Source of the DNA: a virus
Direction: 5' to 3' (one strand)
Virus record (IMG/VR): IMGVR_UViG_3300022929_000247
Coordinates: 1 to 22,195 of that record
DNA length: 22,195 bases
Shown here: in pieces, positions 250 to 17,799 of the stretch
Layout: every line of letters starts with the position of its first letter
How positions within the stretch are numbered: the stretch's first letter is position 1
Notes under the pieces: generated by a model
Seen by the model: the letters and a program-made list of their open reading frames with translations, nothing else
What the model was told of the DNA's origin: nothing
Databases searched by the model: none
Made by a program: the position numbers and the translations under genes

Positions 250-2592
250 TTATTTAAATGCCATATATAAATAGGTTTCTCCATTTTGATTAACCATATG
301 ACTATTTGTATTGTCTATGGCAAACCCTGTTGATGTTAAAGTAAGTCCTGACAAACTCCCACTATAAACATCTTCATCATCTGCTGTACTTGGGTAGAGA
401 TAACTTCTATTTCCTGTTCCGCTTGGTCTTTTATTGTCAAAGATTCCCCAAGGGTCTGACTGTGTAATATTTTTAATTATTACCATTGATGGCTCAAATC
501 CTATATTTTCAGTAACTCCTGAAGTTGCACCTGTATAAGTTCCTATCTTACTATATCCGCTTACTGAATGGAAACAGTAGGCGACCCCTTTATCGGGACA
601 ACTTGTGCCTAAAGTAAATACACTATCTGTTGGTTGCGTGTTGTTCCAAACGCTTGAAACAGCTAAAAAAGCATCGCTTCTCTGTAAAGCCAATCTTCCT
701 AAATGACCATTACCGCCATTAGCAGCTTGTGCCAATACTTGCCAATAGTTTCCGCTACTTGTTCTTGACTTCCAAATAATTAATTCAGGTGCTTGGCTTA
801 GTCCGTGGGAAACTGTTCTAACTCCTGCATCGGCATCCATAGTAACAATACTAAACCCTGCTTCTGTATTAGCACTAACTTGAACGTTTGTGGCAGTACC
901 ACTTCCTGCAACTGCATCGCCTCCGCCTTTCCAAACCCAAGCTACAAAGTCTTGACTACTTTGATTTATATCACCTGCTTCTGATGGAGCTATAAAACCA
1001 TTAGCTTCAAAAGAGGTAATTCTTTGACCACTTGCTGTAGCTTCTGCATCAGTTCCATTTGCCTTTAAAGAACCTGCACTCGCACCTCTAACGGAATCAA
1101 AAAGTCTGTTATTACTTGCAAAAGTTCTACCCTTAACCCATAAAAGGTCAGGCTGAAAACCTACGTTTGAAACATAGGGTGAATTCCCCTCATACAACAC
1201 CGCCTTAAAGTTAGATGTATCTACTTCAGGTTTTTCGTTGTATAGTTCTGTTACTTGGCTATCTGTAAGGGCGGTGTCGTATATTCTTACTTGGTCTATT
1301 TTACCATCAAATTCTGTATTAGTAGATGATGAGTAACTTCCAATCACTCCAATTTGAATACCCGCAGTGCTTGTCCCTGCCGCAACAGATTGTGAATTTG
1401 TTTCTTTATCACCGTTTATAAATACTTTTAAATCAGAGTTATTTGTAAAAACTACGCAAAAGTGATACCAATTTCCATATTCATAAGTAGCAGTAGTAGA
1501 AAAGTCTATTCCACCTACACTACTATAAAAATTGAATTTCATATTATTAAACATAGCCATATACCACCCTCCGCTTAATGAATAATTACCAATGGGTACG
1601 TGATAATTATCAGATGCAGCATCAACATTTACCCAACAAGAAATTGTGAAACTTGTGCCAATATCTGAAGATGTAATAGGTGTTGATATTTTGCCATTAG
1701 TGCCATTAAACACCGCAGCTTGACCGAATCGCCCAAATCTGTACTCAATGTTCGTGTCAGTTCCATCGTTACCTCCTGTGGAAAAGTCCTCACTACTGTT
1801 GTCCAATTTGTAATAAGCTACAGGTGTAGTCCCTGCAGGATAGTTTACTATGTCTGTGGTAGATGTATATACACAAGCGGTTTCTAAGTAAAGAGTAGAT
1901 ACTTCGGTAGAGTTTAATGCTTTATTGAATATGCGGACTTGGTCTATATCTCCATCAAAATTTTGTGAATCATTATAATATGCACCTATGAAAATATCAT
2001 AGGTTGAATCTCCTGAAGTCCAACCGCTTGTTAATCCACTTCCAGAAACTACTTCAGAATCATTATCAACATATAAATAAGAATTTGTGCCTGATGATGT
2101 TAAATCCCAAGTTGCAACTATATTGTGATAATTACCATCAGCATAAGAAGAAGATGTAGTTATGTCTAAAGCATTTGGCGCACCACCACCATCGTTTATT
2201 TGAAGCCTTATTTGACCACTTGTATTTAATAGAATATTAACTCCTTTATTTGAAGAGCCATATCCTGAAGCTAAAATAACTTCTGTGCCACTTGGATTTG
2301 CGTCTGCCTTAAACCAAAAAGAATGACTCCCAACATTTTGAGTTTTTAAATTGGTATCTATATTACTACTACTCCCATTAAACCTTGCACCATAGTTTAT
2401 CTGTCCGCCTACTCCGAAGGTAACGTCAGTAGGTGTGCCTGAATAGTCAGTACCATCAGGGGCAGTACTTGCATCATAATCAAGATTATATAATGCTACA
2501 CCACTTGAATCGCCAAATGGATCTGTGGAATCAGTAGTACAAGCTGCCGCAGCAGCCGCACCTGTATTAATTAATCTTTTGCCTAAACTCAT
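250..2592 (-). CDS. Tail-associated adhesin with two LamG domains and a tandem C-terminal beta domain
   Basis: This is a 780-residue virion protein likely to act in host-surface recognition. The N-terminus (MSLGKRLINTG plus an alanine run and CTTDSTDPFG) is a linker type seen in phage tail proteins, not a signal peptide. Two concanavalin A-like LamG/laminin-G domains follow at about residues 31-237 and 255-455; each ends with the signature FDGxIDQVRI(F/Y)xxAL followed by LY. LamG folds bind glycans or proteins. The C-terminal third (about 460-780) holds two related halves, each with GFxPxLLWVK/GFEPSMVIIK-type strands and a later FD motif, resembling a jelly-roll domain common in marine phage tail proteins (DUF7483-like; recalled, not searched). 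It ends TYLYMAFK. Its start overlaps the preceding stop as ATGA, so translation is probably coupled. It lies just before the tail-tube gene. Confidence 0.75.
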   Translation of the reverse strand: MSLGKRLINTGAAAAAACTTDSTDPFGDSSGVALYNLDYDASTAPDGTDYSGTPTDVTFGVGGQINYGARFNGSSSNIDTNLKTQNVGSHSFWFKADANPSGTEVILASGYGSSNKGVNILLNTSGQIRLQINDGGGAPNALDITTSSSYADGNYHNIVATWDLTSSGTNSYLYVDNDSEVVSGSGLTSGWTSGDSTYDIFIGAYYNDSQNFDGDIDQVRIFNKALNSTEVSTLYLETACVYTSTTDIVNYPAGTTPVAYYKLDNSSEDFSTGGNDGTDTNIEYRFGRFGQAAVFNGTNGKISTPITSSDIGTSFTISCWVNVDAASDNYHVPIGNYSLSGGWYMAMFNNMKFNFYSSVGGIDFSTTATYEYGNWYHFCVVFTNNSDLKVFINGDKETNSQSVAAGTSTAGIQIGVIGSYSSSTNTEFDGKIDQVRIYDTALTDSQVTELYNEKPEVDTSNFKAVLYEGNSPYVSNVGFQPDLLWVKGRTFASNNRLFDSVRGASAGSLKANGTDAEATASGQRITSFEANGFIAPSEAGDINQSSQDFVAWVWKGGGDAVAGSGTATNVQVSANTEAGFSIVTMDADAGVRTVSHGLSQAPELIIWKSRTSSGNYWQVLAQAANGGNGHLGRLALQRSDAFLAVSSVWNNTQPTDSVFTLGTSCPDKGVAYCFHSVSGYSKIGTYTGATSGVTENIGFEPSMVIIKNITQSDPWGIFDNKRPSGTGNRSYLYPSTADDEDVYSGSLSGLTLTSTGFAIDNTNSHMVNQNGETYLYMAFK

Positions 2593-3149
2593 ACTATTTC
2601 ATCTTCAGATGGTGGGAAAAATCTTTTGTCATATTGCAACAAGTCAGCATAGGATGTCAACGCATTAACCTCCGATTCTTTTCTGTCAAGTTCTGTCAAT
2701 ATGCCCGACCTTTCCGTTTGTGTATCTGAATCAATATCGATGTCCCTTTCGAATTTCCTTACGACTTGCCAATCACTTGGTTGTAATAATTGATTTGCTT
2801 TTTGTTTTAGTTCAGACAAAATAGTTAATTGTAAATCTGAAACTTTATATCTTTTTTCTGTTTCACCGGTTGGTTCTCCATCTTCTCCAATAATATCAAC
2901 CTCTTGGTCAAAATCAATATCGGTAACAACATTAGTAAAAACATTATTTTCAGAATCAAATTCAATCCCACCCTTTGTTTGGGTCAATGGATTAAATGAT
3001 GATTTTACAACATCATAAAAACCCTCCGCCTCAATAGTTTCAGCATCGGCATTTCTAAAGTTTAAAATAACAGTTCCATCATCCTTGGTATATTCAGATG
3101 GTAGAGATTTATAAATTTTTATTTGACCGTTTTCAGTTCTTGCTTTCAT
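2589..3149 (-). CDS. Hypothetical virion or tail-fibre accessory protein (possible fibre chaperone)
   Basis: A 186-residue acidic protein. I place the start at the internal ATG (MKARTENGQIK) one base after the stop of the fibre gene; the longer frame reaching 3218 would overlap that gene by 68 bases and adds a low-quality His/Gln-rich leader. The N-terminal half looks beta-rich (GQIKIYKSLP, GGIEFDSENNV, VVTDIDFDQEV). The C-terminal half is helical, with LQPSDWQVVRKFERD near residues 122-136 and a closing YDKRFFPPSED. An SDW motif before charged helices recalls the C-terminus of tail-fibre assembly proteins (DUF4376/Caudo_TAP type), and its place between a fibre-like gene and an adhesin gene fits a chaperone. 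The similarity is weak, so the function remains open. Confidence 0.6.
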   Translation of the reverse strand: MKARTENGQIKIYKSLPSEYTKDDGTVILNFRNADAETIEAEGFYDVVKSSFNPLTQTKGGIEFDSENNVFTNVVTDIDFDQEVDIIGEDGEPTGETEKRYKVSDLQLTILSELKQKANQLLQPSDWQVVRKFERDIDIDSDTQTERSGILTELDRKESEVNALTSYADLLQYDKRFFPPSEDEIV

Positions 3150-3150
3150 A

Positions 3151-3756
3151 TTATTGTGGTTGTGCCGATGAATAAGTGGCAATTGAATAGTGATATATTT
3201 TTGAACCGGATGTATCATCGGTGCAGACTATTTGAATCAAATTTGTTGCTGACCCATCGTATGTGGTTGAACCTACCCGATTAAAAGTTGACCCGGTTTC
3301 TGCAAATGTTAGGGCATAATTTCCCGTAATAATTAAATCAATCACTTGACCTTGCACGGCATTTGAAAAGGTTAATGTTGCTGCTGCTGATGCGGTTGCC
3401 GTAAATGTACAAGCATTACTAAAATTTAATGCAAAAGATGTCCCACTTCCAAGTGCCGAAAGTTCAGAATATCGATCCTCTAATTTTGCAAAGGTTACCG
3501 AATCATCTGCCAAAAAACTTGTTCCCAAAGTTGTCCCGACCGTACCATCTGCCAAAAGGATTTGACTCGATGTTCCACTTGTTTTTACAAACGATGTTGC
3601 CTCCAATCTTCCGGTGGTGTCAACTTGTATGTTTAAGTCATTTCCAACCCCATCAGTCAGTTCCTTTGTTGAACCGGATGCGGCGGCATTATCAGTCAAT
3701 TTGATAAGACCTTGATAAGTATCTTTTATTTTTAATCCCGATAGCGTAGTACCCAT
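3151..3756 (-). CDS. Tail-fibre-like structural protein
   Basis: A 201-residue protein of low charge, rich in Thr, Ser, Ala and Gly, as in fibre and collar proteins. The N-terminal third (MGTTLSGLKIKDTYQGLIKLTDNAA) is a pattern seen in phage proteins whose C-terminal half is a beta-sandwich. A middle segment has SFLADDSVTFAKLEDRY, a repeat type typical of trimeric fibre shafts. The last third (ACTFTATASAAATLTF, NYALTFAETG, ATNLIQIVCTD) has alternating hydrophobic strands. It follows the tryptophan-repeat gene after a short leader with two TAAATTTG boxes and is followed by the possible chaperone gene with a one-base gap. No enzyme motif is visible. Confidence 0.65.
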   Translation of the reverse strand: MGTTLSGLKIKDTYQGLIKLTDNAAASGSTKELTDGVGNDLNIQVDTTGRLEATSFVKTSGTSSQILLADGTVGTTLGTSFLADDSVTFAKLEDRYSELSALGSGTSFALNFSNACTFTATASAAATLTFSNAVQGQVIDLIITGNYALTFAETGSTFNRVGSTTYDGSATNLIQIVCTDDTSGSKIYHYSIATYSSAQPQ

Positions 3757-3769
3757 AATTTATTTTTTA

Positions 3770-3786
3770 CAAATTTAACAAATTTA
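3770..3786 (-). promoter_or_regulatory. Two overlapping TAnnTTTG boxes before the fibre gene
   Basis: The minus strand holds TAAATTTG twice (3786-3779 and 3777-3770), both exact matches to the Bacteroidota -7 consensus. The downstream leader TAAAAAATAAATT then meets the ATG at 3756. Sixteen bases (TTTATTTTTTACAAAT on the plus strand, 3759-3774) are identical to the tail-tube leader at 191-206. No good -33 box was found, so the promoter role is inference. Confidence 0.4.
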
Positions 3787-4038
3787 TATTTCATCCCATA
3801 ATTCAGTTTCCGCATTCCAATTTTTAGTCAACACCTCCCAAGTTTCCGGCAATCTTTCGTTGTATGTATTCCACACTTCATTGATAGAATCCCAAGTAAG
3901 TGGGATGACATAATTATAGGATTGCCATCTGTCCTCTGTATTATTCCATAAATCCTCAAGGTTGTCCTGAAGATATTTTTTAATTATTTTCTTGGTTTTC
4001 TTAGACCTTGAAATTACGTTAAAAGAAAGACCAAGCAT
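3784..4038 (-). CDS. Small protein with three 18-residue tryptophan repeats
   Basis: An 84-residue protein. After a basic N-terminus (RSKKTKKIIKKY, residues 11-22) come three tandem 18-residue units starting at Trp31, Trp49 and Trp67. Tryptophans fall at 31, 38, 49, 56, 67, 74 and 81, a strict spacing of 7, 11, 7, 11, 7, 7. Units share W-x6-W and a Pro-x-Thr end (VIPLT, RLPET). The repeat tract is acidic, so the protein is strongly bipolar in charge. It is separated from the preceding gene by no bases (TAAATG) and sits among small virion-associated genes. No family is recognised; a repeat this regular suggests a structural or binding role. Confidence 0.7.
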   Translation of the reverse strand: MLGLSFNVISRSKKTKKIIKKYLQDNLEDLWNNTEDRWQSYNYVIPLTWDSINEVWNTYNERLPETWEVLTKNWNAETELWDEI

Positions 4039-4332
4039 TTATTTTGGTTTACGCAAATAGCAGATTATTTGACCGTGTGTGATTGATATATCAGTAAAAT
4101 TACCATAAATGATGTGACCCTCTTTAATCGAAAAACTTGTAAATCCATCATCCCCTCCGGGGGTGTCGTTTGTAAGTGTAATGGTGGAATTTTCGGTACA
4201 TTCTATTGAACAGAAATATTCACCACTTGGCGTTGATGCATTTCCGTGGGTGTAATCCAAAAGGCGAAATCCATAATCGCCGAATGACATTCGATAAAAA
4301 TTATTTGAGGAGTACAAGTCACGAGTTGCCAT
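4039..4332 (-). CDS. Small hypothetical virion-associated protein
   Basis: A 97-residue, probably all-beta protein starting MATRDLYSSNNFYRM. The centre (GEYFCSIECTENSTITLTND) and the end (GHIIYGNFTDISITHGQIICYL) show alternating hydrophobic strands with Gly turns, as in small phage structural or decoration proteins. The ATG at 4332 lies two bases after the stop of the small basic gene, and its stop abuts the ATG of the tryptophan-repeat gene. Placement in a run of fibre and tail genes suggests a virion component, possibly a head or tail decoration. No named family is recognised. Confidence 0.65.
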   Translation of the reverse strand: MATRDLYSSNNFYRMSFGDYGFRLLDYTHGNASTPSGEYFCSIECTENSTITLTNDTPGGDDGFTSFSIKEGHIIYGNFTDISITHGQIICYLRKPK

Positions 4333-4334
4333 AT

Positions 4335-4463
4335 TTATCTTCTTTTACCTTGACCACGAGATTTCTTTTTCCAACCTTTTTGGTTTATTGATGCATTCTT
4401 TGAATGAACACCGGGGCGTTTTCTTTTCGTGGCTTTTACAAAATTAGTAATATTTTTCGCCAT
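4335..4463 (-). CDS. Small, very basic 42-aa protein
   Basis: A short ORF starting MAKNITNFVKATKRKRPGVH and ending SRGQGKRR. About a third of its residues are Lys or Arg. The RPGVHSKNAS segment recalls short basic proteins annotated only as hypothetical in phages of Bacteroidota (recollection, not searched). The start overlaps the upstream holin stop as TAATG, which argues that it is translated by coupling. Nucleic-acid binding is a plausible guess from charge alone. Its first 29 bases recur almost exactly at 15663-15691, with both differences at synonymous third positions. Confidence 0.65.
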   Translation of the reverse strand: MAKNITNFVKATKRKRPGVHSKNASINQKGWKKKSRGQGKRR

Positions 4464-4464
4464 T
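4436..4464 (-). repeat. 29-bp near-repeat, copy A (start of the small basic gene)
   Basis: Covers the ATG and first nine codons of the basic gene (peptide MAKNITNFV). The plus strand begins TTACAAAATTAGT and ends GCCATT. It matches 15663-15691 at 27 of 29 positions. Confidence 0.8.
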
Positions 4465-4873
4465 ACTTATGGAGTTTATTTCCAAACACCTTCTCGACCC
4501 CACGACTGCCGAAATAACCTCCAAGAATAACTTGCATTAAGCCGGTGATTGTTGTTAGGTCATATTCCATATACCATCCAACGATGTAAGAAATTGTAAA
4601 AAAACACAAAGTCAAAGGGCGGACATTTTGTGCCAACCATCCACTTTTTGCATCAGCGACCCACCTTCGGGTCACCCCATCCATTTCGGCTCGTTCTAAT
4701 CTTAGCTTTTCTAAGGCAACTTCCTTATCCTCCGCCGACATATCTGAGCCACCAATTATTGCCTCAATGACATTCCCCACCGGAGTATCTTGTGCAATCG
4801 CACCGACTACCTTTGGAATCTTTTGCAGTAGAAAAGAACCTACTGCCGTATCTTTAAATTTCTTTTTAGGCAT
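4463..4873 (-). CDS. Holin of the 3TM / GTA-holin type
   Basis: A 136-residue protein with the features of the 3TM holin family (Pfam GTA_holin_3TM). A charged N-terminal region (EDKEVALEKLRLERAEMDGVTRRW) is followed by AKSGWLAQNVRPLTL at about residues 76-90. Two hydrophobic segments then come at about 88-103 (LCFFTISYIVGWY) and 107-125 (ITGLMQVILGGYFG), ending with the family's YFGSRGVEKV. Holins form inner-membrane lesions that start lysis. The endolysin gene lies directly upstream and the basic gene overlaps its stop by TAATG, so the lysis cluster is coupled. The start is the ATG giving MPKKKFKDT. Confidence 0.85.
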   Translation of the reverse strand: MPKKKFKDTAVGSFLLQKIPKVVGAIAQDTPVGNVIEAIIGGSDMSAEDKEVALEKLRLERAEMDGVTRRWVADAKSGWLAQNVRPLTLCFFTISYIVGWYMEYDLTTITGLMQVILGGYFGSRGVEKVFGNKLHK

Positions 4874-4891: not shown

Positions 4892-5272
4892 TTAGCTATA
4901 TAACCATAAAACGTTGGGGTCTTTGACACCATCGGGAAAGTCAGTTCCATCCGAGTCAACGTGGATGAAAGTTTTGGCAACCCCAAACCGGTTAAATCCG
5001 GCTTGTTGTAAAGCCGACAAAATAATCCCTCTTTCCCTTGAATTTCTAATTGCGATGTCAACCGCTTTTCCAACAATATGGCTCGAATTCGGTTTTCCTC
5101 CAACCTCTTGATTGTGTTCGATTGTTCGCCACCCGGAATTGATTTTAAAAGGGATGCCGGCGATTTCACGAGCATTGTCGAGCATTGCCAAAAAATCAGC
5201 ATCCATATACCTCCCACTATCGTGGACATCCGGCGAATCAAATTCCTCATATTTAAAAAACCTTAAAGCCAT
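4892..5272 (-). CDS. Endolysin, peptidase M15 family (peptidoglycan L,D/D,D-peptidase type)
   Basis: A compact 126-residue zinc peptidase. It begins FFKYEEFDSPD, a common N-terminus of M15 phage endolysins, and then shows FKINSGWRT, the metal-binding SSHIVGKAVDI (His65 and Asp72 as ligands) and FIHVDSDG (His104), which completes the M15 zinc site. Such enzymes cut peptide cross-links in peptidoglycan to release progeny. There is no signal peptide, so export depends on a holin. Its ATG overlaps the stop of the upstream membrane-protein gene as TAATG, and the 3TM holin follows 18 bases downstream. Whether the cut is L,D or D,D cannot be decided from sequence. Confidence 0.88.
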   Translation of the reverse strand: MALRFFKYEEFDSPDVHDSGRYMDADFLAMLDNAREIAGIPFKINSGWRTIEHNQEVGGKPNSSHIVGKAVDIAIRNSRERGIILSALQQAGFNRFGVAKTFIHVDSDGTDFPDGVKDPNVLWLYS

Positions 5273-5652
5273 TATTCCTCACTTTTACAATCTTCGTTTC
5301 CACAATCATCCTTTCCGCTTTTTCTAAGCATCAAGCGGGTGATCGTGTCATCTTGTAATTTGATAAGCATACCCTCAAGACCATCTTTTTGAGTGACAAG
5401 CATATCAACTTTCATCTCCAAAGATGATATTTTTTTCTTGGCATCATTTAGTTCATTGGGTTTTGAACCGGTGATGGATGAAATAATCATTGAAAGGGAT
5501 GCGGCGATCATTCCGGTCAGAGTCAAAATCGGATCACGGTTGTCCTCCGGAATCTTGTATTGTGTAAGGTAATACATAATCAAGATAATAAGACCGAAAA
5601 CCAAAAGCGAACCGCTAAAGTGCAAAATTTCTTTTCCTAAGTTTTTACTCAT
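5272..5652 (-). CDS. Membrane protein with coiled coil, lysis-cluster component
   Basis: A 126-residue protein with two hydrophobic segments at about residues 12-30 ([19 protein letters not shown]) and 43-60 ([18 protein letters not shown]). A probable coiled coil follows (about 65-103, [20 protein letters not shown]), then an acidic tail with two cysteines (DDCGNEDC). The topology could fit an auxiliary holin or a spanin-like partner, but no known family is recognised. It starts inside an ATGA overlap with the 47-aa gene and ends in a TAATG overlap with the endolysin gene, so it is tightly coupled to lysis. The role is inferred from context. Confidence 0.7.
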
Positions 5653-6672: not shown

Positions 6673-6991
6673 TTTTTGTGGCTTTTATGGTTGTATAATA
6701 TTTATATCCGGATTCAAATTTGCCATTGATACGGTATTCCCCGGAAACGTTTTCGATTTTTAAAAGGTCGGTGTTTAAGATCGTGTCGGCGGTTTTTTTA
6801 CGAACAATAAGTTCAATATCAACCTCACGCCTACGCTTTCCATTCTCTTGGCTTATGTCACCGCTTGTTTCTCTTTTGAATGCCCATATAGTCGATGCAG
6901 TTGCCGTTGTGGAAGTGTAACCCCCATAAGTGTCGGCAGTCTTTGTCAATCGCCTTACTTCAACCCTTGTATCAAGTTTTCCGGCATCCAT
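6665..6991 (-). CDS. Head-closure / head-tail adaptor protein (Phage_H_T_join, SPP1 gp16-like)
   Basis: A 108-residue beta-barrel protein. The N-terminus (MDAGKLDTRVEVRRLTKTADTYGGYT) is the family pattern: an early basic strand, then DxYGG, then a Trp (TIWAFKRETSGD). The end (SGEYRINGKFESGYKYYTTIKA) is the usual closing strand. These proteins seal the portal channel after DNA packaging and receive the tail. It starts in a TAATG overlap with the connector gene and overlaps the gp10-like gene by 8 bases. Confidence 0.85.
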   Translation of the reverse strand: MDAGKLDTRVEVRRLTKTADTYGGYTSTTATASTIWAFKRETSGDISQENGKRRREVDIELIVRKKTADTILNTDLLKIENVSGEYRINGKFESGYKYYTTIKATKID

Positions 6992-7548
6992 TAAATAAAC
7001 AAGGTTTTATATGATGACAATAAATTCCTTGTGCTTGTTTTTATTTCTTGCACAATTGTTCCGGTCACAAAATCAGACCGATTGTCATAATAAGTCGTAA
7101 CCATTTGCAACAACGCTTGTTTGAGAAATGAATCATCAAGACCGGTGGTCACATAAGTGATTTTGACTTCTTTTGCCGGTAGTTCATTCAGTTCAATTAT
7201 TTCATTATCCAAACCTTTTGCTGAATATGTGGCGGCAGTTCCATCAACTGTTGCCGATGAAATAGATGCAACCGGGGCGAAAGGTAATGCGATTCTCGTG
7301 TTGGCGAATGGCAAATAGTAAGTTCTATTTTTTGCCACAATATCTTTTGAGATATAATTTTCCGCCACGATTCTCGCTTGGGTGATCATCTGACCAATAA
7401 TCGTATCATCTGCCGTGGTGTCAATTCTTGCAAAATCCTTGACATTTGCCGCAGTAATGATTTCACTTCCGGTTGTGGAATTGATTTTCATTTGCGGTTG
7501 AAACGTAATTGGCGGATCGCTGAAATAAGTGTTTTTGGTGTAAGGCAT
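6991..7548 (-). CDS. Head-tail connector protein (HK97 gp6 / SPP1 gp15-like)
   Basis: A 185-residue protein of the gp6-like connector family, which forms a ring under the portal. Visible features are the helical start of the core (VKDFARIDTTADDTIIGQMI), the next helix (ARIVAENYISKDI), and a beta insertion (RTYYLPFANTRIALPFAPVASISSATV). A final helix (FLKQALLQMVTTYYDNR) follows. This helix-beta-helix layout is diagnostic. It follows the 69-aa gene directly (TAAATG) and overlaps the adaptor gene by TAATG. It is the first well-identified gene after the terminator at 7781-7814. Confidence 0.85.
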   Translation of the reverse strand: MPYTKNTYFSDPPITFQPQMKINSTTGSEIITAANVKDFARIDTTADDTIIGQMITQARIVAENYISKDIVAKNRTYYLPFANTRIALPFAPVASISSATVDGTAATYSAKGLDNEIIELNELPAKEVKITYVTTGLDDSFLKQALLQMVTTYYDNRSDFVTGTIVQEIKTSTRNLLSSYKTLFI

Positions 7549-7758
7549 TTACTTGGCTTTTTTAGTGGTTCGTTTTCTCGCCACTTTGTTTTCCTTCGTT
7601 TCTTTTACTTTTTTTTCCTCTTTTACCTTTTCGACAAATTCAACGCCGATTCCTTTTTTGATGTAATCCGATGCGACCTTATTATCGACATCGTAAACCT
7701 TTTCTTCCCAACGCCATCCTTCAGAGGATAAAACGCTTTTTTTCATTAATATTTTCAT
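7549..7758 (-). CDS. Small hypothetical protein with Lys-rich tail
   Basis: A 69-residue protein with an N-terminal half carrying SSEGWRWEEKVYDVDNKVA and a middle IKKGIGVEFVEK. The last 28 residues are almost all Lys, Glu, Arg and Thr, ending RKRTTKKAK. It is the first gene after a strong terminator, with an exact TATCTTTG box and a 15-base leader before the ATG at 7758. Short proteins with Lys/Glu tails often precede head-tail connector genes in siphoviruses, but their role is mostly unknown. The tail could be disordered or bind DNA. Confidence 0.65.
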   Translation of the reverse strand: MKILMKKSVLSSEGWRWEEKVYDVDNKVASDYIKKGIGVEFVEKVKEEKKVKETKENKVARKRTTKKAK

Positions 7759-7773
7759 AATATGTTATTTGCA

Positions 7774-7781
7774 CAAAGATA
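7774..7781 (-). promoter_or_regulatory. Candidate -7 promoter box (TATCTTTG) for the connector operon
   Basis: Minus strand TATCTTTG is an exact TAnnTTTG match whose first T is the last base of the terminator T-run. A TTTA in the terminator loop lies 18 bases upstream, one mismatch from the -33 TTTG. A terminator and a promoter would therefore share sequence, restarting transcription for the connector genes. Inference from consensus and position. Confidence 0.5.
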
Positions 7782-7814
7782 AAAAAAAAGGGTAACACTT
7801 AAATGCTACCCTTT
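7781..7814 (-). terminator. Strong intrinsic terminator after the nuclease gene
   Basis: On the minus strand the stem GGGTAGCA pairs with TGTTACCC (8 pairs, one G-U) around loop TTTAAG, flanked by AAA/TTT, and is followed by a run of nine T. This is a textbook rho-independent terminator for minus-strand transcripts, 45 bases past the stop of the nuclease gene. Confidence 0.85.
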
Positions 7815-7858
7815 CAAACCAAACTTATTAATATAATTCATAAAACAAAAAAAATGAA

Positions 7859-8254
7859 TTATTGATGGGATTGAGAGTCCCTCGTAAATACAAAGTTATT
7901 AAAATTCTTTGAATATTTACCAACAAGCGACAATCTTACCGATTGCATATTGCCATTATTTTTAAATATAAAAAAACCATCGTATAAAGTGACATACACG
8001 GCGAAATAGTCAACACTCCCTTTGTCATAAATCCTTTTGTTGTTCTGTAATGGAACGTGTATTGTCGTTAGGTTTTCTTTTTCGGGAGTTCTAATCGTGG
8101 ATTTAATTTGGATTTTAAACAAGTCAACGCCGTTGTCAACAATACAATCATATATTGATGCCGGGCAAAGTGGCATTGATATTTGATAGCCTCTTTTGAT
8201 GCACTCGGTTGCAAAAAGGTATTCAGAAAAACACCCTCTTTGATTATTATTCAA
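7859..8254 (-). CDS. PD-(D/E)XK endonuclease (PDDEXK_5 / Holliday-resolvase-like), TTG start
   Basis: A 131-residue nuclease-like protein. The fold signature is Glu11 in GCFSEYLFATECIKRGY, Asp36 in SIYDCIVDNG, and QIK (residues 49-51) in LFKIQIKST, followed by VDYFAVYV at 81-88. This order matches free-standing PD-(D/E)XK enzymes related to group I intron endonucleases and archaeal resolvases. The start must be TTG at 8254: an in-frame stop lies four codons upstream and the first ATG would remove the Glu11 helix. The gene sits alone between two strong terminators, inside the head-tail region. Possible roles are homing-type cutting, resolvase in packaging, or host or rival DNA attack; the sequence does not decide. 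Confidence 0.75.
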   Translation of the reverse strand: MNNNQRGCFSEYLFATECIKRGYQISMPLCPASIYDCIVDNGVDLFKIQIKSTIRTPEKENLTTIHVPLQNNKRIYDKGSVDYFAVYVTLYDGFFIFKNNGNMQSVRLSLVGKYSKNFNNFVFTRDSQSHQ

Positions 8255-8269
8255 TTTATTGGTTTAATG

Positions 8270-8277
8270 TAAAGGTA
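8270..8277 (-). promoter_or_regulatory. Weak -7-like box (TACCTTTA) before the nuclease gene
   Basis: Minus strand TACCTTTA matches TAnnTTTG at all but the last base. It lies just after the upstream terminator and 15 bases before the TTG start. It is the only space available for a dedicated promoter. No convincing -33 box was found. Confidence 0.25.
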
Positions 8278-8278
8278 T

Positions 8279-8312
8279 AAAAAAATGCCCACCAAGTGAA
8301 TGGCGGACATTT
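8279..8312 (-). terminator. Strong intrinsic terminator before the nuclease gene
   Basis: On the minus strand AATGTCCGCCA pairs with TGGTGGGCATT (11 pairs, two G-U) around loop TTCACT, followed by seven T. It ends transcripts of the upstream small genes 25 bases before the nuclease start. Confidence 0.85.
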
Positions 8313-8336
8313 CCCAACAATTATCAAACAAAAAAA

Positions 8337-8459
8337 CTATCTTAATTTATTTACTAATTTATTAAATTTTTTGATATTAACAATTTTTTGATTTATGTTG
8401 ATGTGCCGGTGGATATGCATATCCTTTTCCTTACTTAGGAAATTATCTTTTTCAGCCAT
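8337..8459 (-). CDS. 40-aa basic small ORF
   Basis: Starts MAEKDNFLSKEKDMHIHRH and ends NKLVNKLR. It has many Lys, Asn and Ile residues, with a His cluster at 15-19. It overlaps the end of the membrane-protein gene by 25 bases in another frame and stops 25 bases before a strong terminator, so it could be the last gene of that small unit. No family is recognised, and chance ORFs of this size are common in AT-rich DNA. Confidence 0.4.
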   Translation of the reverse strand: MAEKDNFLSKEKDMHIHRHININQKIVNIKKFNKLVNKLR

Positions 8460-8695
8460 ATTACAATATCTAATAAAAATATTTCAATGTGAAAATTATT
8501 CCACCAATCAATGATGGTTTCAATGTGCAATAAAAAATTAGTGAATGCCCATACTGATATAAAAAACGCCGCCAATAATATTGCAAAGGATTTCAATGCC
8601 TCAATGATATTCTTGCGATTTTCCTCGTTGGTAATTCTTTTCACCATTATATATTCCGGTGAATCTTGTATTCTGTAATCATTTTGATTTCTCAT
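8435..8695 (-). CDS. Small membrane protein in accessory block
   Basis: An 86-residue protein. A charged N-terminus (MRNQNDYRIQDSPEYIMVKRITNEENRK) precedes a clear transmembrane helix at about residues 31-53 (ALKSFAILLAAFFISVWAF). A second hydrophobic, tryptophan-containing stretch covers 60-82. An internal Met18 is an alternative start. It is not like the structural proteins around it and lies between the capsid gene and the connectors, inside the block bounded by terminators. Small membrane proteins at such sites are often superinfection-exclusion morons; this is context-based inference only. Confidence 0.6.
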   Translation of the reverse strand: MRNQNDYRIQDSPEYIMVKRITNEENRKNIIEALKSFAILLAAFFISVWAFTNFLLHIETIIDWWNNFHIEIFLLDIVIWLKKIIS

Positions 8696-8718
8696 AATTT
8701 AAATATTGGTTATACAAA

Positions 8719-8736
8719 GGGGGTGTTGCCACCCCC
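8719..8736 (-). terminator. GC-rich hairpin after the 45-aa ORF (possible weak terminator)
   Basis: A perfect 7-bp stem GGGGGTG/CACCCCC with loop of four bases. On the minus strand it is followed by only TTTG, so termination would be weak. It starts 8 bases past the stop of the 45-aa ORF. It could instead be an RNA stability or processing element. Confidence 0.5.
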
Positions 8737-8744
8737 GGTTGGTT

Positions 8745-8882
8745 TTATTTGTTATAGGTCGATGCTTTAAAAATCTCATTAACAGTTAAAGCGGCTTTTT
8801 TAGAATCTCCAAACCTTGTAGTATATACTCCGATTAAATTGGCTCTTAAATTAATTTTTCTGTGTACGTTTACTGATTTCAT
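8745..8882 (-). CDS. 45-aa hypothetical protein downstream of the capsid gene
   Basis: A small ORF starting MKSVNVHRKINLRANLIGV and continuing TRFGDSKKAAL before NEIFKASTYNK. It has mixed charge and no membrane segment. It is bounded upstream by the capsid terminator and downstream by the GC-rich hairpin, which fits a discrete transcript. A 101-base AT-rich leader (8883-8983) with a TATATTTA box at 8924-8931 could hold its promoter. The A-rich sequence before the ATG (AAAACAAAATT) suits Bacteroidota initiation. No family is recognised. Confidence 0.55.
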   Translation of the reverse strand: MKSVNVHRKINLRANLIGVYTTRFGDSKKAALTVNEIFKASTYNK

Positions 8883-8983
8883 AATTTTGTTTTTAAGTTG
8901 TTTTTAAATTGTTAATTATGGTGTAAATATATATAATTTATTTTAGAATATAAAAAATATTTTACATTTATTTTCTTAAACCC

Positions 8984-9013
8984 AAAAAGGGCAGTCGATA
9001 TGACCACCCTTTT
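8984..9013 (-). terminator. Terminator of the major capsid gene
   Basis: On the minus strand AAAAGGGTGGTC pairs with GACTGCCCTTTT (12 pairs including two G-U) around loop ATATC, then another T. It lies 22 bases after the capsid stop and ends the head operon. Confidence 0.8.
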
Positions 9014-9035: not shown

Positions 9036-10250
9036 TTAAGGAGTTTCAAGTGCCGCTTTAGCAGTTGAGAACGTACCTTGTACGATAGCATTTGGAGAAT
9101 AGTTTGTAAGTGCCACACGCTCTTGCGCTCTAACAGTAACAAATCCATCTCTGAAGTTTGTAGAATCTTCTCTTGAAAATTCGATACCAAGTCCATCACG
9201 CACCCATAGTTGAGATGCTTGTGCCAAGTTCCCAACAAGGAATTTCCCGGCAGTAACGGCGGTGTTCAATGTGATTGGCACACCATTGATTGCGGGTTGA
9301 ATACCTTGAATGATTTGATTTTTCAAATATTCGTTGGCAGTTGATTTAAGCAATACGATTTTGTGGAAATCGGTAGGATTCAAAAGAATCGTGTCGGCTT
9401 GATAGTTAGCAAGTGCCAATTGGTTCAATGCAGCAATAAGAACATCAAATTCATTAGCAGATTCTACTGCATCATCAAATGCACCACCTGATGTGATAAA
9501 AGCAGTTCCATCGGTGAATAGACCATCAAGGTTTGGTGAAGAACCATCGCCATTTAGGATTTCAGTATCCTCAACAGACAATACTTTTCCGGGTACTCTT
9601 GCCGATAGGTAAGAAGATAATCCAGGAGTATCGTTCAACATCTCCTCAGTTATTCTCATAAATGTCCCGATCTTCTCAACATTCACGCTTGTGGCGGTAA
9701 TGTCAAAATCAGATTGTCCAACGGCAGAACCTTGAGCAGTTGCAGCAGCACCATCATCATAAGCAGATTCTTTAGGGAATCTAATTGTTTGTGAATCGGT
9801 GTTTCCGATAGGCAAAAGAGTTCTAATGTGAACGCTTCTTGAGGGATCAAATTTAAAGTCCTCAATTACAGTTTCTCCGGCAACAACACCCGTGTAGGCA
9901 TTAGCCATTGTCATATCACCTGCCTTGATTTCAAATCTTGCGGCGTTGGTGTTACCTTTTACAAGTGCCTCGATTGCACCATCTTTGATGGCGGCTTCGA
10001 TTTGACCTTTAAAGGTTTTGGTGTTTACACCTGAAAGCGTTTTTTTGCTTTCCATTTCGATGGCATCCATTCTCTTTGTAGCGGCTTCCATCTTTTCGTT
10101 GTAATCATTAGTCAAATTTGTGATTTCGCTTTTCAGAGATGATTCAACTTCACCTTTAGCATTTTCTTGTGCTTGGTTGAAAGCCTTTTCAATCTTTGAA
10201 TCTACGATGTCACCGATTTGATCTAATTGGTTTTTAATTTCCTCGTTCAT
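9036..10250 (-). CDS. Major capsid protein, HK97 fold
   Basis: A 404-residue capsid subunit. The N-terminal 75 or so residues are predicted coiled coil (MNEEIKNQLDQIGDIVDSKI, then KMEAATKRMDAIEME), the scaffold-like delta domain removed by the protease in HK97-type phages. The core follows with FKFDPSRSVHIRTLLP and the conserved KIGTFMRITEEMLNDTPGL, which marks the E-loop/spine region. Later elements include NGDGSSPNLDGLF and a C-terminal EFSREDSTNFRDGFVTVRAQERVALTNYSPNA, typical of this family. It follows the protease gene with a 4-base gap and ends at a strong terminator, consistent with very high late expression. Confidence 0.92.
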   Translation of the reverse strand: MNEEIKNQLDQIGDIVDSKIEKAFNQAQENAKGEVESSLKSEITNLTNDYNEKMEAATKRMDAIEMESKKTLSGVNTKTFKGQIEAAIKDGAIEALVKGNTNAARFEIKAGDMTMANAYTGVVAGETVIEDFKFDPSRSVHIRTLLPIGNTDSQTIRFPKESAYDDGAAATAQGSAVGQSDFDITATSVNVEKIGTFMRITEEMLNDTPGLSSYLSARVPGKVLSVEDTEILNGDGSSPNLDGLFTDGTAFITSGGAFDDAVESANEFDVLIAALNQLALANYQADTILLNPTDFHKIVLLKSTANEYLKNQIIQGIQPAINGVPITLNTAVTAGKFLVGNLAQASQLWVRDGLGIEFSREDSTNFRDGFVTVRAQERVALTNYSPNAIVQGTFSTAKAALETP

Positions 10251-14141: not shown

Positions 14142-15332
14142 TTAAATAACAAAGAAATCATTTCGCTTACTATATTGGGAATAAACGCCATACCTCAAGC
14201 AGTCCATTTGGTGATTTAGGCGGTCAACCGGCTTGTTTATAATTGTACCATCTTTTAACTGTTCCCAATAGTATCCATTGTATTCTTTGAATATGTTTTT
14301 TGATTCTTGGCTTACGATGACATCAAATTCTTTTAAAAGCGAAATCCCGGCGGTGATTGACCCTTGACCTTTGATTGCCGGTTTGCATACAATACCCAAC
14401 CTTCGGAGTTCCTCCCCTGACTTTGGTTCGGCACTATCATAAAACGTTAACACTTGATCATAACCATTTGCCTTGAAATAATCAGCGATGTCACCATTGG
14501 TCATTCCGGTGTTGTATAAGATTTCGTGAACATACAATTTATCTGACTTGCGGAATATGATTGCCGCCGCCGATGGGTCGTTGCTAAATCCAAAGTCCAA
14601 TCCAATGACCGCCTCAGTATGTAAATCAAATTCCGGGAAATCTTTGTGGGGAATAAACTTCCAATTATTGAATATCTGCCGGGCGGAAAACACCGCCTTT
14701 TGACCTTCACCAAATACCCTCCAATAATCCGGATCACGCTCACGCATCCTTTCAATCTCATAAACAAGATCATCAGACAAAAACATATTGTCTTTGTAGG
14801 TTGTAATCCAAGTGTCGCAATCCTCCCTTGGGATGATGTCATCATATATCCAATGCACCGGGTCGGATGGGTTGAAATCCATAATGATATTGTCGGTGGT
14901 ACGCATATTGATTTGTCGAAAGTCCTCAAGCAACAATTCGTTTGCCTCGTTCAACACGGCAATATTTCTTTTTCGACCACGGATTTTCTGACTGTCATCA
15001 ACAGATAAAAATTCAACAAGGTGTTTGCCATATCGAAAAGTATTCTCCGCTTTATTGTGATTGCCATCGAAATACATTCCGGTCTGTTCTAATATAGAAA
15101 TAAAGTCCCTTTGAATAGAGCCTTTTAACGCCGGTAATGTTTTTCTGATAAGGGAAATGGTTAGTGGCTCTTTTGCAGTCGTTAGAATGTAAGCTACATA
15201 TTGACAGATGGCGTATGTCTTACCACTTCGTGTCCCTCCTTGTAGGACTTTGAATCTTTTATCTGAATTAATTAAATCGTAGAATTGGCGATTGCACTTT
15301 TGTTCTACTTTTCTTTGTCTGCCGGTTTCCAT
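14142..15332 (-). CDS. terL: Terminase large subunit
   Basis: A 396-residue packaging motor of the Terminase_3/PBSX type. The ATPase half has Walker A GGTRSGKT (32-39), a coupling region QKIRGRKRN (115-123) and Walker B AVLNEAN with Glu129 (125-131). The nuclease half shows the RNase H-like acidic triad: Asp246 in VIGLDFGFSNDPSAA, Asp299 in LTFYDSAEPKS and Asp377 in LNHQMDCLRYG. It drives DNA into the prohead through the portal and cuts the concatemer. The 28-base overlap with the small-subunit gene indicates coupling. Confidence 0.95.
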   Translation of the reverse strand: METGRQRKVEQKCNRQFYDLINSDKRFKVLQGGTRSGKTYAICQYVAYILTTAKEPLTISLIRKTLPALKGSIQRDFISILEQTGMYFDGNHNKAENTFRYGKHLVEFLSVDDSQKIRGRKRNIAVLNEANELLLEDFRQINMRTTDNIIMDFNPSDPVHWIYDDIIPREDCDTWITTYKDNMFLSDDLVYEIERMRERDPDYWRVFGEGQKAVFSARQIFNNWKFIPHKDFPEFDLHTEAVIGLDFGFSNDPSAAAIIFRKSDKLYVHEILYNTGMTNGDIADYFKANGYDQVLTFYDSAEPKSGEELRRLGIVCKPAIKGQGSITAGISLLKEFDVIVSQESKNIFKEYNGYYWEQLKDGTIINKPVDRLNHQMDCLRYGVYSQYSKRNDFFVI

Positions 15333-15661
15333 TCTATTAGTGTAGATTGGACATTTCCTTCGTGGGCAATTTCTTGGCGTTCAATATATCCTCGTTTTTT
15401 CCCTTTTGTTTTTAATAGAAATAAAGTTGCCGCCGGGTTGTGATTTTCAACCATCTTATGCAATGCCGATTCAGCAAAATCCAAGACAACATTTTGAACA
15501 TCATCAACATTTTCACGATATTCCTTATCTGCATCCAACCACCGGTAATGGGTAACCCTATCAATGCCAACCATCTTTGCGGCAGTTGTAACCACCCCAA
15601 GGGTTTTTTCCAATGCCTCGATCATTGCTTTCTTTTTTATAGCCGTTGCATTTTGTTTCAT
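15305..15661 (-). CDS. terS: Terminase small subunit
   Basis: A 118-residue DNA-recognition subunit. A helix-turn-helix lies at about residues 12-45 (IEALEKTLGVVTTAAKMVGIDRVTHYRWL), followed by a helical oligomerisation region (VVLDFAESALHKMVE) and NPAATLFLLKTKGKKRGY, a segment found in many terS proteins. The acidic/basic tail overlaps terL by 28 bases. Identification rests on motif, size and position. Confidence 0.85.
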   Translation of the reverse strand: MKQNATAIKKKAMIEALEKTLGVVTTAAKMVGIDRVTHYRWLDADKEYRENVDDVQNVVLDFAESALHKMVENHNPAATLFLLKTKGKKRGYIERQEIAHEGNVQSTLIEWKPADKEK

Positions 15662-15662
15662 A

Positions 15663-15691
15663 TTACAAAATTAGTGATATTTTTTGCCATT
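15663..15691 (-). repeat. 29-bp near-repeat, copy B (fossil start of the small basic gene)
   Basis: Matches 4436-4464 at 27 of 29 positions. Read from the ATG at 15690 it encodes MAKNITNFVI and then stops. Both base differences are at third codon positions of that frame and are silent. It straddles the end of the ParB-methyltransferase gene in another frame and the 9-base gap before terS. Confidence 0.8.
15666..15673 (-). promoter_or_regulatory. TAnnTTTG box (TAATTTTG) before terS
   Basis: Exact consensus match whose TAA is also the stop codon of the methyltransferase gene, followed by TAAT and the terS ATG. Because it also lies within the 29-bp repeat, it could be inherited coding sequence rather than a promoter. 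Confidence 0.3.
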
Positions 15692-16783
15692 GATTTTTAC
15701 CTTAATATTTGGATCAAGTTTTATCATTCGATCAATTATAACTTGACAATATTTTGGATCAAGTTCCATTCCGTAGCATTTGCGTTTTAATTGGTGTGAT
15801 GCAATCATTGTTGTGCCACTTCCCAAAAAAACATCTAAAACAATTTTATTTTTTTTTACTTGTGGTTTTATTAAATCAGATATAAAATTTATTGGTTTTG
15901 GGCAAGTGTGTAGTTCACGCATCCCATCACCTCTATCGGATGTATGTTCAAAAACATCCCAAGTGTATTTTTCATTTACTTTTCCATAAATAAAGATTGG
16001 TTCTGTCTTTCTTAAATGAAAAGATGAACCCCCTGATTGTTTTGTTTTATCAAACCAAGTCATTTCGTCTTTGGGTTCTTTTGACCACCAATATTTTTTA
16101 TATTTCCATCCTGTTGTAATCACGATAAGTTTATTTTGTTCTTTTAAAATATCAAACCATTGATCACAAAATTTTAAATATTCATCACCTTTTGTGTCTT
16201 TATGTGAATTATATTCATATCCTATTCCATAAGGGGGATCAGTAAAAACCATATCAGCTTCCTCATTATCCATTAACTTTGCCACTTGGTCAGCATCAGT
16301 TGAATCACCACACAAAAGTCTATGTTCACCTATCTCTATTAAATCCCCCAAAACAACATCCACTTTTAAATCATCGGGTTCCTCATAATCATCCTCCTGT
16401 GCATCAAGTTCCGGATCGGGAAAATCCGGCAAATCCATTCCCCAATCTTTTAATTTTTGTATGTCCCAATCGTTAGCAACAATATCCCAATCCCATTCGC
16501 CATATCCAAGGTTGTCTTTGATTATAAACTCCTTTTTTTGGTCATCAGTCCATCCTTTTACTTGTTGGATTGGAACCTCAAAAACACCGGCAGATTTTAA
16601 TGCCTTTAAACGCATATTTCCACCCAATACCATAAAGTTTTCATCCACAACAAGTGGTCGGACTTCAAGCATCTCGGGAAATTCTTTGATTGATTTAACT
16701 AACTTTTTGAATTTTTGGTCAGTTATAAAACGAGGATTTTCCTCATTCGGTTTGATTACCGAAATGTTTACCCTTTTTCCCAT
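15671..16783 (-). CDS. ParB-domain / N4- or N6-adenine/cytosine DNA methyltransferase fusion
   Basis: A 370-residue fusion. Residues 1-95 are a ParB/Srx-like domain (NISVIKPNEENPRF, then VLGGNMRLKALKSAG at 52-66). Residues about 140-370 are a beta-class amino-methyltransferase: DVVLGDLIE and LCGDSTD, the catalytic TDPPYGIGY (DPPY 182-185), and the SAM-binding DVFLGSGTTMIASHQLKRKCYGMELDPKYC (317-346). Such enzymes methylate adenine N6 or cytosine N4 and in phages usually guard DNA against host restriction. No cognate restriction enzyme is evident next to it. An acidic hinge (116-138) joins the domains. Confidence 0.93.
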   Translation of the reverse strand: MGKRVNISVIKPNEENPRFITDQKFKKLVKSIKEFPEMLEVRPLVVDENFMVLGGNMRLKALKSAGVFEVPIQQVKGWTDDQKKEFIIKDNLGYGEWDWDIVANDWDIQKLKDWGMDLPDFPDPELDAQEDDYEEPDDLKVDVVLGDLIEIGEHRLLCGDSTDADQVAKLMDNEEADMVFTDPPYGIGYEYNSHKDTKGDEYLKFCDQWFDILKEQNKLIVITTGWKYKKYWWSKEPKDEMTWFDKTKQSGGSSFHLRKTEPIFIYGKVNEKYTWDVFEHTSDRGDGMRELHTCPKPINFISDLIKPQVKKNKIVLDVFLGSGTTMIASHQLKRKCYGMELDPKYCQVIIDRMIKLDPNIKVKINGKKYH

Positions 16784-16791
16784 TCCCTTTT

Positions 16792-16953
16792 TTATTTATC
16801 AATGTACCAATTAATGTTGAATCCAAATATTCCAATGAACACTTGGATGGTGTGTTTAAAATCTTTTTCCTCAATTATGTCTAAAAGATCATCGTTAGAA
16901 TAATTAAAACCAACCGTGAAACCGTAAAGGGGAAAAAATTCAACTTCAAACAT
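16792..16953 (-). CDS. 53-aa hypothetical protein
   Basis: A small protein starting MFEVEFFPLYGFTVGFNYSN and ending GIFGFNINWYIDK, with many aromatic residues and a middle LLDIIEEKDFKHTIQVF. I start it at the ATG at 16953, where the overlap with the upstream stop is only 8 bases; a longer frame to 17136 would lie inside the 69-aa gene. Strands alternate hydrophobic and polar residues. It lies 8 bases upstream of the ParB-methyltransferase start and shares its transcript. No family is recognised; similar small proteins occur in phage early regions. Confidence 0.6.
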   Translation of the reverse strand: MFEVEFFPLYGFTVGFNYSNDDLLDIIEEKDFKHTIQVFIGIFGFNINWYIDK

Positions 16954-17155
16954 CCTTAAATTTTTTGTAAAGGTAAATATAAAATTCTTTCCACTTGGTG
17001 TCATATTCTTTTTTGGAATACGTTTTGCCGGATGTTTTGGCTTGTCCATTGATCTCATAAACCAAAATAAATTCATTGCCCTTTGGTTTTGGATAGCATC
17101 GTATGGAATTGTTTTCACACCAACGGAACGCATCAAAATACTCGTTTAGATTCAT
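16946..17155 (-). CDS. 69-aa hypothetical protein
   Basis: Starts MNLNEYFDAFRWCENNSIRC and has GNEFILVYEINGQ and KEYDTKWKEFYIYLYKKF later, an alpha-beta-beta-alpha-like pattern with many aromatic residues. Its ATG overlaps the methyltransferase stop as TAATG, and its end overlaps the next small gene by 8 bases, so all three are probably translated together. It does not match a family I know. Context between two DNA methyltransferases suggests, but does not show, a role in modification or anti-restriction. Confidence 0.65.
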   Translation of the reverse strand: MNLNEYFDAFRWCENNSIRCYPKPKGNEFILVYEINGQAKTSGKTYSKKEYDTKWKEFYIYLYKKFKDV

Positions 17156-17799
17156 TAAAACATCTCTAATTGCGTTTGGTTTTGTTTTCGTATAATTCCT
17201 AAAGCTGTTTCTAATATTGTTCTTCCAGCTTCATAATCTACAAGGTTTCTTCCGATTTTAATTTTACTTTGTTTCCCTTGATATTTTTTCAAATTAATGT
17301 TATGAAATTTAGATAAACTTTTAAGTTCGTTTTTTGTTTGTGATATTGCAATTCTTCTATCATTTAAATTATTTGGTAAATTAAAATTTGTCCAATATAA
17401 ATGCCTTCCTCTTTTGTGTGGAATTATAAACGGTTCATAATATGGAATAACATTTTCTACAACATATTTACCCTTAAAATGATGTTTTAAAAAAAGTATT
17501 TCTTGATATAATTTCATATCAGGATAAACTGGATTTTTACCATTTGCACCAATTCCCCAAAACCTCGCTCGGCTATGTGTCGGACAAGGCGGTGATGACC
17601 AAATAAAATCAAAATGTTTATAGTGATCTAATAAATATTGATGTGCATCAGCAACAATAACTTTGTCTTTCGGAAATCTTTCTTGATATAATTTTGCACA
17701 TTCGGGGTCTAATTCAACAGCAGTAACATCAACATTTGTTACTTCATCCCATTTAAATCTGTTACCGCCTAAACAAGCATATAAATTTAAAATTTTCAT
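17155..17799 (-). CDS. C5-cytosine DNA methyltransferase (short phage type)
   Basis: A 214-residue enzyme. SAM motif I is LNLYACLGGNRF (4-15), followed by TAVELDPECAKLY (26-38) and VIVADAHQYL. The catalytic motif IV is WSSPPCPTHSRAR, with Cys72 as the nucleophile in PPC. Motif VI is YVVENV (ENV 115-117), and KRGRHLYWTNF (129-139) is the motif VIII region. The target-recognition part is short (about 140-185), and the C-terminus GRNLVDYEAGRTILETALG resembles the closing motifs. It would methylate cytosine C5 in phage DNA, likely against host nucleases. It follows the primase-helicase gene with 2 bases between. Confidence 0.88.
   Translation of the reverse strand: MKILNLYACLGGNRFKWDEVTNVDVTAVELDPECAKLYQERFPKDKVIVADAHQYLLDHYKHFDFIWSSPPCPTHSRARFWGIGANGKNPVYPDMKLYQEILFLKHHFKGKYVVENVIPYYEPFIIPHKRGRHLYWTNFNLPNNLNDRRIAISQTKNELKSLSKFHNINLKKYQGKQSKIKIGRNLVDYEAGRTILETALGIIRKQNQTQLEMF

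Follow-up and report, generated by a model that had tools for sequence, protein, structure and literature searches.

A slot for swappable small genes at the capsid-connector junction of an uncultured Bacteroidota-type phage lineage

Gene content of the junction

Between the major capsid protein (MCP) gene and the head-tail connector gene of the phage DNA analyzed here lie, in the order in which they are read on the - strand, a terminator, a 45-amino-acid (aa) ORF followed by a GC-rich hairpin, a gene for a small membrane protein overlapped by a 40-aa ORF, a second terminator, a PD-(D/E)XK nuclease gene and a third terminator (Table 1). An earlier note on this DNA had listed these ORFs, the three terminators, the hairpin and the nuclease, and all of them were recovered. 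The window, that is, the whole stretch under analysis, is an IMG/VR record of 22,195 bases in which almost every gene is on the - strand. It belongs to a lineage of uncultured Bacteroidota-type phages, for which the nearest named TerL proteins are those of Bacteroides phages (39%).

Relatives were collected from IMG/VR with the capsid, the connector and the nuclease as queries. The entire junction is present in 117 loci, 68 of them distinct (69 once the window is added), and the capsid identities within this set span about 50 to 99%.

Table 1. Features of the capsid-connector junction, with positions in the window
Feature	Position	Strand	Basis
MCP, upstream anchor of the junction	9036..10250	-	PF05065, 1.7e-35; phrog_10, 2.7e-44
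Terminator 1, after MCP	8986..9012	-	stem-loop AAAGGGTGGTCATATCGACTGCCCTTT plus T tract; counterpart in 68/69
Slot promoter -7 box (putative) TATATTTA	8924..8931	-	leader comparison, box statistics, consensus TAnnTTTG
Cassette ORF, 45 aa	8745..8882	-	sole structural-region gene missing from all 7 close relatives compared
Cassette 3' hairpin GGGGGTG-GCAA-CACCCCC, GNRA loop	8719..8736	-	perfect 7-bp stem, 8 nt past the stop codon
Small membrane protein, 86 aa, resident	8435..8695	-	alignment, hydropathy, homologs in two lineages, purifying selection
Resident 40-aa ORF, overlaps membrane gene	8337..8459	-	family in 32/69 junctions; dN/dS < 1
Terminator 2, before nuclease	8283..8312	-	counterpart in 67/68 relatives
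Promoter-like -7 box TACCTTTA for nuclease	8270..8277	-	box statistics
PD-(D/E)XK nuclease, 131 aa, TTG start, resident	7859..8254	-	PF11645 PDDEXK_5, 1.3e-12
Terminator 3, after nuclease	7787..7814	-	counterpart in 59/67 relatives
Promoter-like -7 box TATCTTTG for connector operon	7774..7781	-	box statistics
Small resident ORF, 69 aa, opens connector operon	7549..7758	-	91-100% identity in close relatives
Head-tail connector, downstream anchor	6991..7548	-	PF05135, 2.3e-6; phrog_442, 3e-15

Terminators and promoter-like boxes

The terminators that had drawn attention to this region are conserved across the lineage far beyond what is obtained with shuffled sequences. Among the distinct junctions, the terminator after MCP has a counterpart in 68 of 69 (5.0 in shuffles), the one before the nuclease in 67 of 68 (11.5 in shuffles) and the one after the nuclease in 59 of 67 (7.5 in shuffles). 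What the earlier note had overlooked is that each terminator is followed by a promoter-like box. Matches to the Bacteroidota -7 box (TAnnTTTR; consensus TAnnTTTG, PMC7366714) were found in the second spacer of 52 of 68 junctions and in the third spacer of 63 of 67, against 24.4 and 24.9, respectively, after shuffling; in the first spacer (P1), the enrichment is weak (57 of 69 against 39.4). These boxes are short, AT-rich motifs; we infer from the sequences that they have promoter activity. In several close relatives of the window, the slot promoter box reads TATATTTG.

Because the terminators and -7 boxes are conserved in most junctions, we consider it likely that the junction consists, throughout the lineage, of three insulated transcription units, the first of which serves as an accessory slot that exchanges small-ORF cassettes. 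Under the proposed arrangement, unit 1 would run from its promoter through one or more swappable cassettes to the resident membrane protein gene and small ORF, and end at a terminator; unit 2 would comprise a promoter, the resident I-Ssp6803I-like nuclease gene and a terminator; and unit 3 would start from the promoter that precedes the connector and tail genes. Such terminators and promoters would permit foreign genes to be swapped while expression of the capsid and connector genes stays undisturbed.

A hypervariable slot among close relatives

Comparison with related phages, which the earlier note had put forward as the check on its reading, yielded a split answer: the gene order and most of the genes are conserved in all relatives, which is half of what would refute that reading, whereas a single slot varies extremely. 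None of the seven close relatives compared has the 45-aa ORF, and different ORFs occupy its place; in the same seven phages, all other structural genes between 3151 and 15332 are present wherever the contigs cover them. Within this interval, the variation in the tail-fibre and lysis genes is allelic and does not extend to their presence. A nearly identical cassette was found in a single relative (L002), with an identical protein sequence. Close relatives thus either have no counterpart of this gene or have another gene where it would be, as in an accessory slot.

The pattern extends to 13 relatives with capsid identities of 96-99%, in which the leader, linkers and resident genes are near-uniform and the first promoter is followed by one or two ORFs that differ from phage to phage. 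Single cassettes in this group encode 45, 78, 49, 85, 55, 81 or 64 aa, and paired cassettes include the family combinations F14+F7, F25+F8, F25+F7 and F24+F8. Only 15 of the 106 junction pairs with an MCP distance below 0.05 have any cassette in common, and the 69 junctions hold about 74 cassette families. Cassettes are thus replaced, doubled or lost among near-identical phages, each amounting to one small ORF that, in about half of the cases, has its own GC-rich 3' hairpin.

The earlier note had described the whole block as a moron-like cargo site and had treated its members as being of one kind. This holds for the 45-aa ORF with its hairpin and fails for the nuclease, the membrane protein and the 40-aa ORF, which are resident: the true cargo site is narrow, comprising the ORF and its 3' hairpin between the MCP terminator and slot promoter on one side and the membrane protein gene on the other. 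In one relative (L135, 3643-4485), a C5 DNA methyltransferase gene lies amid small cassettes, within the largest variable region found (2.8 kb).

The cassette hairpin

A GC-rich hairpin follows 53 of the 111 cassette ORFs, at a median distance of 8 nt from the stop codon, but only 3 of the 187 resident ORFs; 0.8 would be expected from shuffles. Within the window, the hairpin pattern occurs once (0.02 expected). Given that 58 of the 111 cassettes have no detectable hairpin, the ORF-plus-hairpin unit is not strict. The stem varies between clades with compensating changes, and the sequence is not conserved between families. On the coding strand, the loop is GNRA in 33 of the 53 cases and TTGC in 4, which indicates a role in RNA. 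Moreover, the hairpin sequence of the window is present in at least 120 viral stretches, mostly of unrelated phages, where it is located between genes, and is therefore best read as a stable cistron-end RNA element, not as a recombination site. The hairpin would probably protect or bound each cistron. A dedicated recombination site was rejected as the main reading on the strength of this wide occurrence, the GNRA loops and the half of the cassettes that have no hairpin. As a separate observation, loops in both orientations with the stem kept (GCAA/TTGC; ATGA/TCAT) were seen among the window (8719-8736), L007, L153, L155 and L158, resembling flip-flop loop inversion.

The same slot in an unrelated lineage

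Two of the cassette families, F8 and F27, recur in other phages, close to the terminase genes. For F8, this is accounted for by a second slot, located directly downstream of TerL in another lineage (hereafter lineage B) and followed by a homolog of the membrane protein. The TerL of lineage B is about 32% identical to that of the window lineage (lineage A), and its nearest named relatives are in Flavobacterium phages (48%). In a search with the alignment of the membrane protein, the order after TerL was found to be a TATATTTAC/TATATTTG box, cassettes, hairpin and then the membrane-protein homolog; among the loci examined, 22 distinct lineage-B slots have this homolog after TerL.

Five cassette families are common to the capsid slot and slot B: F7 (93-95%), F8 (75-83%), F26 (81-84%) and two more at 55% and 49%. 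From the start codon through the hairpin, F7 is about 92% identical between the two lineages; the nucleotide match extends into the start of the membrane gene and, in the upstream direction, ends at the A-rich leader. In lineage B, two slots are empty, with gaps of 57 and 62 nt. In the one that was aligned (L384), a promoter-like box and the membrane gene are kept while the ORF and the hairpin are both missing, which assigns the hairpin to the cassette. Taken together, the extent of the F7 match and the empty slot identify the ORF plus hairpin as the exchange unit. The empty slots of lineage B also suggest that the cassette genes are dispensable for growth. Part of the cassette sharing between the lineages could go back to an older common origin of the slot and not to recent transfer. 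It is plausible, though less likely than not, that unrelated lineages have received a portable Bacteroidota-phage locus by transplantation, with a promoter, exchangeable cassettes of ORF plus hairpin and a membrane protein dedicated to marking the cargo or working with it.

The cultured Flavobacterium phage FPSV-S2 (L391, MK764443) has a run of nine small ORFs of unknown function right after TerL (1584-4865), a possible cultured counterpart of slot B.

Resident genes beside the slot

The membrane protein carries the motif EYIMVKRITxEENRKNII followed by a TM segment, as judged by alignment and hydropathy, and gave no convincing family match in Pfam or PHROG searches. For its gene, dN/dS is 0.03-0.11/0.18-0.78, and for the 40-aa ORF, 0.02-0.11/0.05-0.73; both are well below 1, pointing to purifying selection, so that both ORFs are real genes. 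Members of the 40-aa family usually sit immediately before the nuclease gene. Neither gene fits the role of cargo previously proposed for it: the 40-aa ORF is a resident under purifying selection, and the membrane protein family is found behind a cassette slot even in unrelated phages. The membrane protein is the marker gene of the slot, and since two unrelated lineages have it at a fixed place on the 3' side, it may be that it acts with the cargo or has a role of its own in infected cells, such as exclusion.

The nuclease is present in 96 of the 96 capsid loci with at least 3 kb downstream and in 114 of the 114 connector loci with at least 1.2 kb upstream, counts that include overlapping loci of the same contigs and are based on the loci retrieved with the capsid and the connector, leaving the nuclease search aside. 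As it is never missing from an informative locus, it is a resident gene of the lineage, and its earlier interpretation as cargo is ruled out. The PF11645 score is 48.4 bits against a curated cut-off of 26.1, and G7, E11, D36, Q49 and K51 are invariant in 69 of 69 sequences, with the catalytic residues E11, D36, Q49 and K51 intact. The top profile match is I-Ssp6803I (2OST, 2.5e-6), with its D and QxK residues aligned, and the AlphaFold model (pLDDT 86.8) likewise has 2OST as its top fold match (E 7.6e-8), followed by Hjc resolvases (1gef, 1e-4). In several or most close relatives, the middle of the gene (8203-7964) is 65-75% identical, compared with mostly 85-98% for its ends and neighbours, and dS is 1.1-2.1 against 0.3-0.6 in neighbouring genes. 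This central divergence and raised dS imply that nuclease alleles have been exchanged, yet the gene has not been lost; they suggest replacement of the central segment. Most likely, the nuclease would have a resident function, either in the processing of branched DNA or as a domesticated homing-type cutter.

Route of exchange and alternative explanations

Exchange of the cassettes most likely proceeds by ordinary homologous recombination or annealing. Candidate exchange points are the A-rich leader, which is conserved, the hairpin and the beginning of the membrane gene. This presumed route draws on junction sequences such as that of L064 (MCP 76%), where the linker and the first ~33 membrane-protein residues of the window clade are followed by sequence of the phage's own clade; that the crossover falls within this gene speaks for homologous recombination or annealing. 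An integron-like system, in which the hairpins would be site-specific recombination sites served by a recombinase encoded elsewhere, would match the layout of single-ORF cassettes with 3' hairpins behind one promoter, and the departure of the hairpin along with the ORF. The sequence differences among hairpin families and their absence from about half of the cassettes, the occurrence of the common hairpin between genes of many unrelated phages and the preponderance of coding-strand GNRA loops over TTGC all speak for an RNA role instead, and there is no common attC-type site per cassette. No recombinase gene is evident near the slot, no attC-type boxes were noticed by eye and, by inspection, no tyrosine recombinase (IntI) is evident among the ORFs of the window, the record being a fragment. 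We regard an integron-like system as highly improbable. Hardly better placed, and very unlikely, is a classical moron block in which the membrane protein, the nuclease and the small ORFs were each acquired independently as exclusion cargo: every unit does have its own terminator and promoter-like box, but the nuclease and the small membrane ORFs occur throughout the lineage in a fixed order, and for the nuclease the idea is already contradicted.

The nuclease itself might drive the exchange as a free-standing homing endonuclease that cuts rival junctions, whereupon repair would copy in the flank including the cassettes. I-Ssp6803I as the best profile and fold match, the location at the edge of the variable slot, as with nucleases at phage exchange boundaries (PMC10448857), and the divergent middle and high dS as a mark of allele replacement all fit this scenario. 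We nevertheless consider it unlikely. Instead of the patchy presence expected of a homing endonuclease, the gene is universal, leaving no nuclease-free allele to home into; the sharp difference in divergence between the nuclease and its own flanks argues against wide-tract co-conversion; and slot B swaps the same cassettes with no nuclease homolog detected within its ~3.5 kb flanks, so that swapping can probably do without the nuclease. Another explanation, for which we would put the chances at a little under even, is that the nuclease is a Holliday-junction resolvase-like or packaging-linked partner of the head genes and is adjacent to the slot by coincidence, which is compatible with the slot model. 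Its universal presence, invariant catalytic residues and purifying selection, as well as the fold match to Hjc, are in keeping with such a role; I-Ssp6803I is, however, closer than Hjc by both profile and fold, and a structure-specific housekeeping nuclease would not usually have alleles that diverge this fast. Homologous recombination or annealing in a slot flanked by resident genes is the explanation that we prefer.

Other variable regions

Elsewhere in the window, the putative endolysin and holin-like genes (4892-5652) show allelic swaps, being 49-58% identical in some close relatives and 91-99% in others, in surroundings that are otherwise about 90% identical. Upstream of TerL, the interval 15305-17799 has only poor matches in the close relatives used for comparison and may represent another variable region; it contains a 118-aa ORF, a ParB-like/DNA methylase fusion (15671-16783) and a second MTase-like gene. 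A search of host genomes yielded a single match, a contig labelled as part of a Woesearchaeota MAG (L332, PBPJ01000031). It carries this phage lineage, with a junction that includes the nuclease, and is probably misbinned.

Cargo and implications

Of the 58 representative cassette proteins, only 4 have a match in Pfam (one to C5 DNA methylase, one to DUF3310 and two weak ones), and Pfam, PHROGs and PADLOC together returned almost nothing for the cassettes beyond C5 methyltransferase and DUF3310. In PADLOC, the cassette of the window had no match, and among the matches listed, all were to methyltransferase models; the structure model of F8 is of too low quality for use (pLDDT 58). By analogy with comparable loci of Mu-like Pseudomonas phages, which include anti-CRISPR genes (PMC4378225), host-specific proteins for takeover or counter-defence are the probable cargo, and fast swapping between Bacteroidota-type phages is the usual behaviour of counter-defence genes.

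These observations make the upkeep of accessory genes within a conserved head operon directly testable. Cargo moves between unrelated phages as an ORF plus hairpin, into different slots, empty versions of which are preserved, and a conserved I-Ssp6803I-like nuclease is placed beside one such slot. They also provide a search rule: dozens of uncharacterized swapped genes could be located by looking immediately upstream of genes for short membrane proteins with the motif EYIMVKxxTxxxNRKNII. If the portable-locus reading is true, the membrane protein would be a guide gene to counter-defence proteins, as aca is for anti-CRISPRs.

Comparison with known systems

The slot is of a kind already known, the phage accessory hot spot; narrow full-text searches found no description of this particular one in the literature. 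In lambdoid phages, a moron is a single gene with its own promoter and terminator inserted between adjacent genes (PMC4378225). The slot resembles this arrangement in that a small extra gene, accompanied by terminators and a promoter, lies among structural genes. It differs in that the promoter, the terminator and the downstream membrane gene are resident and do not travel with the gene, only the ORF plus hairpin being swapped, and in that multi-cassette versions exist. The plasticity and anti-CRISPR loci of Mu-like Pseudomonas phages, one of which lies between the protease and major head genes and some of whose cargo is counter-defence (PMC4378225), similarly hold hypervariable short genes at fixed loci of otherwise conserved genomes. 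Here, a resident membrane protein takes the place of the associated regulator gene, the cassettes can bring their own RNA hairpin, and the same cargo is found at two unrelated slots in different phages. With integrons, the slot shares the layout in which a promoter precedes cassettes of one ORF and a 3' hairpin; here, however, no common attC-like site was found and no integrase was evident on inspection of the ORFs, and the hairpins vary and are often missing.

Phages are known to carry homing-type nuclease genes at the borders of exchanged segments (PMC10448857). The nuclease of the window likewise has a homing-endonuclease fold and adjoins an exchanged region close to the capsid genes, but it is of the PD-(D/E)XK type, is fixed in the lineage and has no homolog seen beside slot B. 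With I-Ssp6803I (2OST), a PD-(D/E)XK homing endonuclease, it has in common the fold and the catalytic D and QxK motif; it differs in being outside any intron, universal in its lineage and without a known target. Three points are new: the unit of ORF plus hairpin, the existence of empty slots, and the fact that the layout, the membrane protein and the cargo recur at an unrelated position in another lineage.
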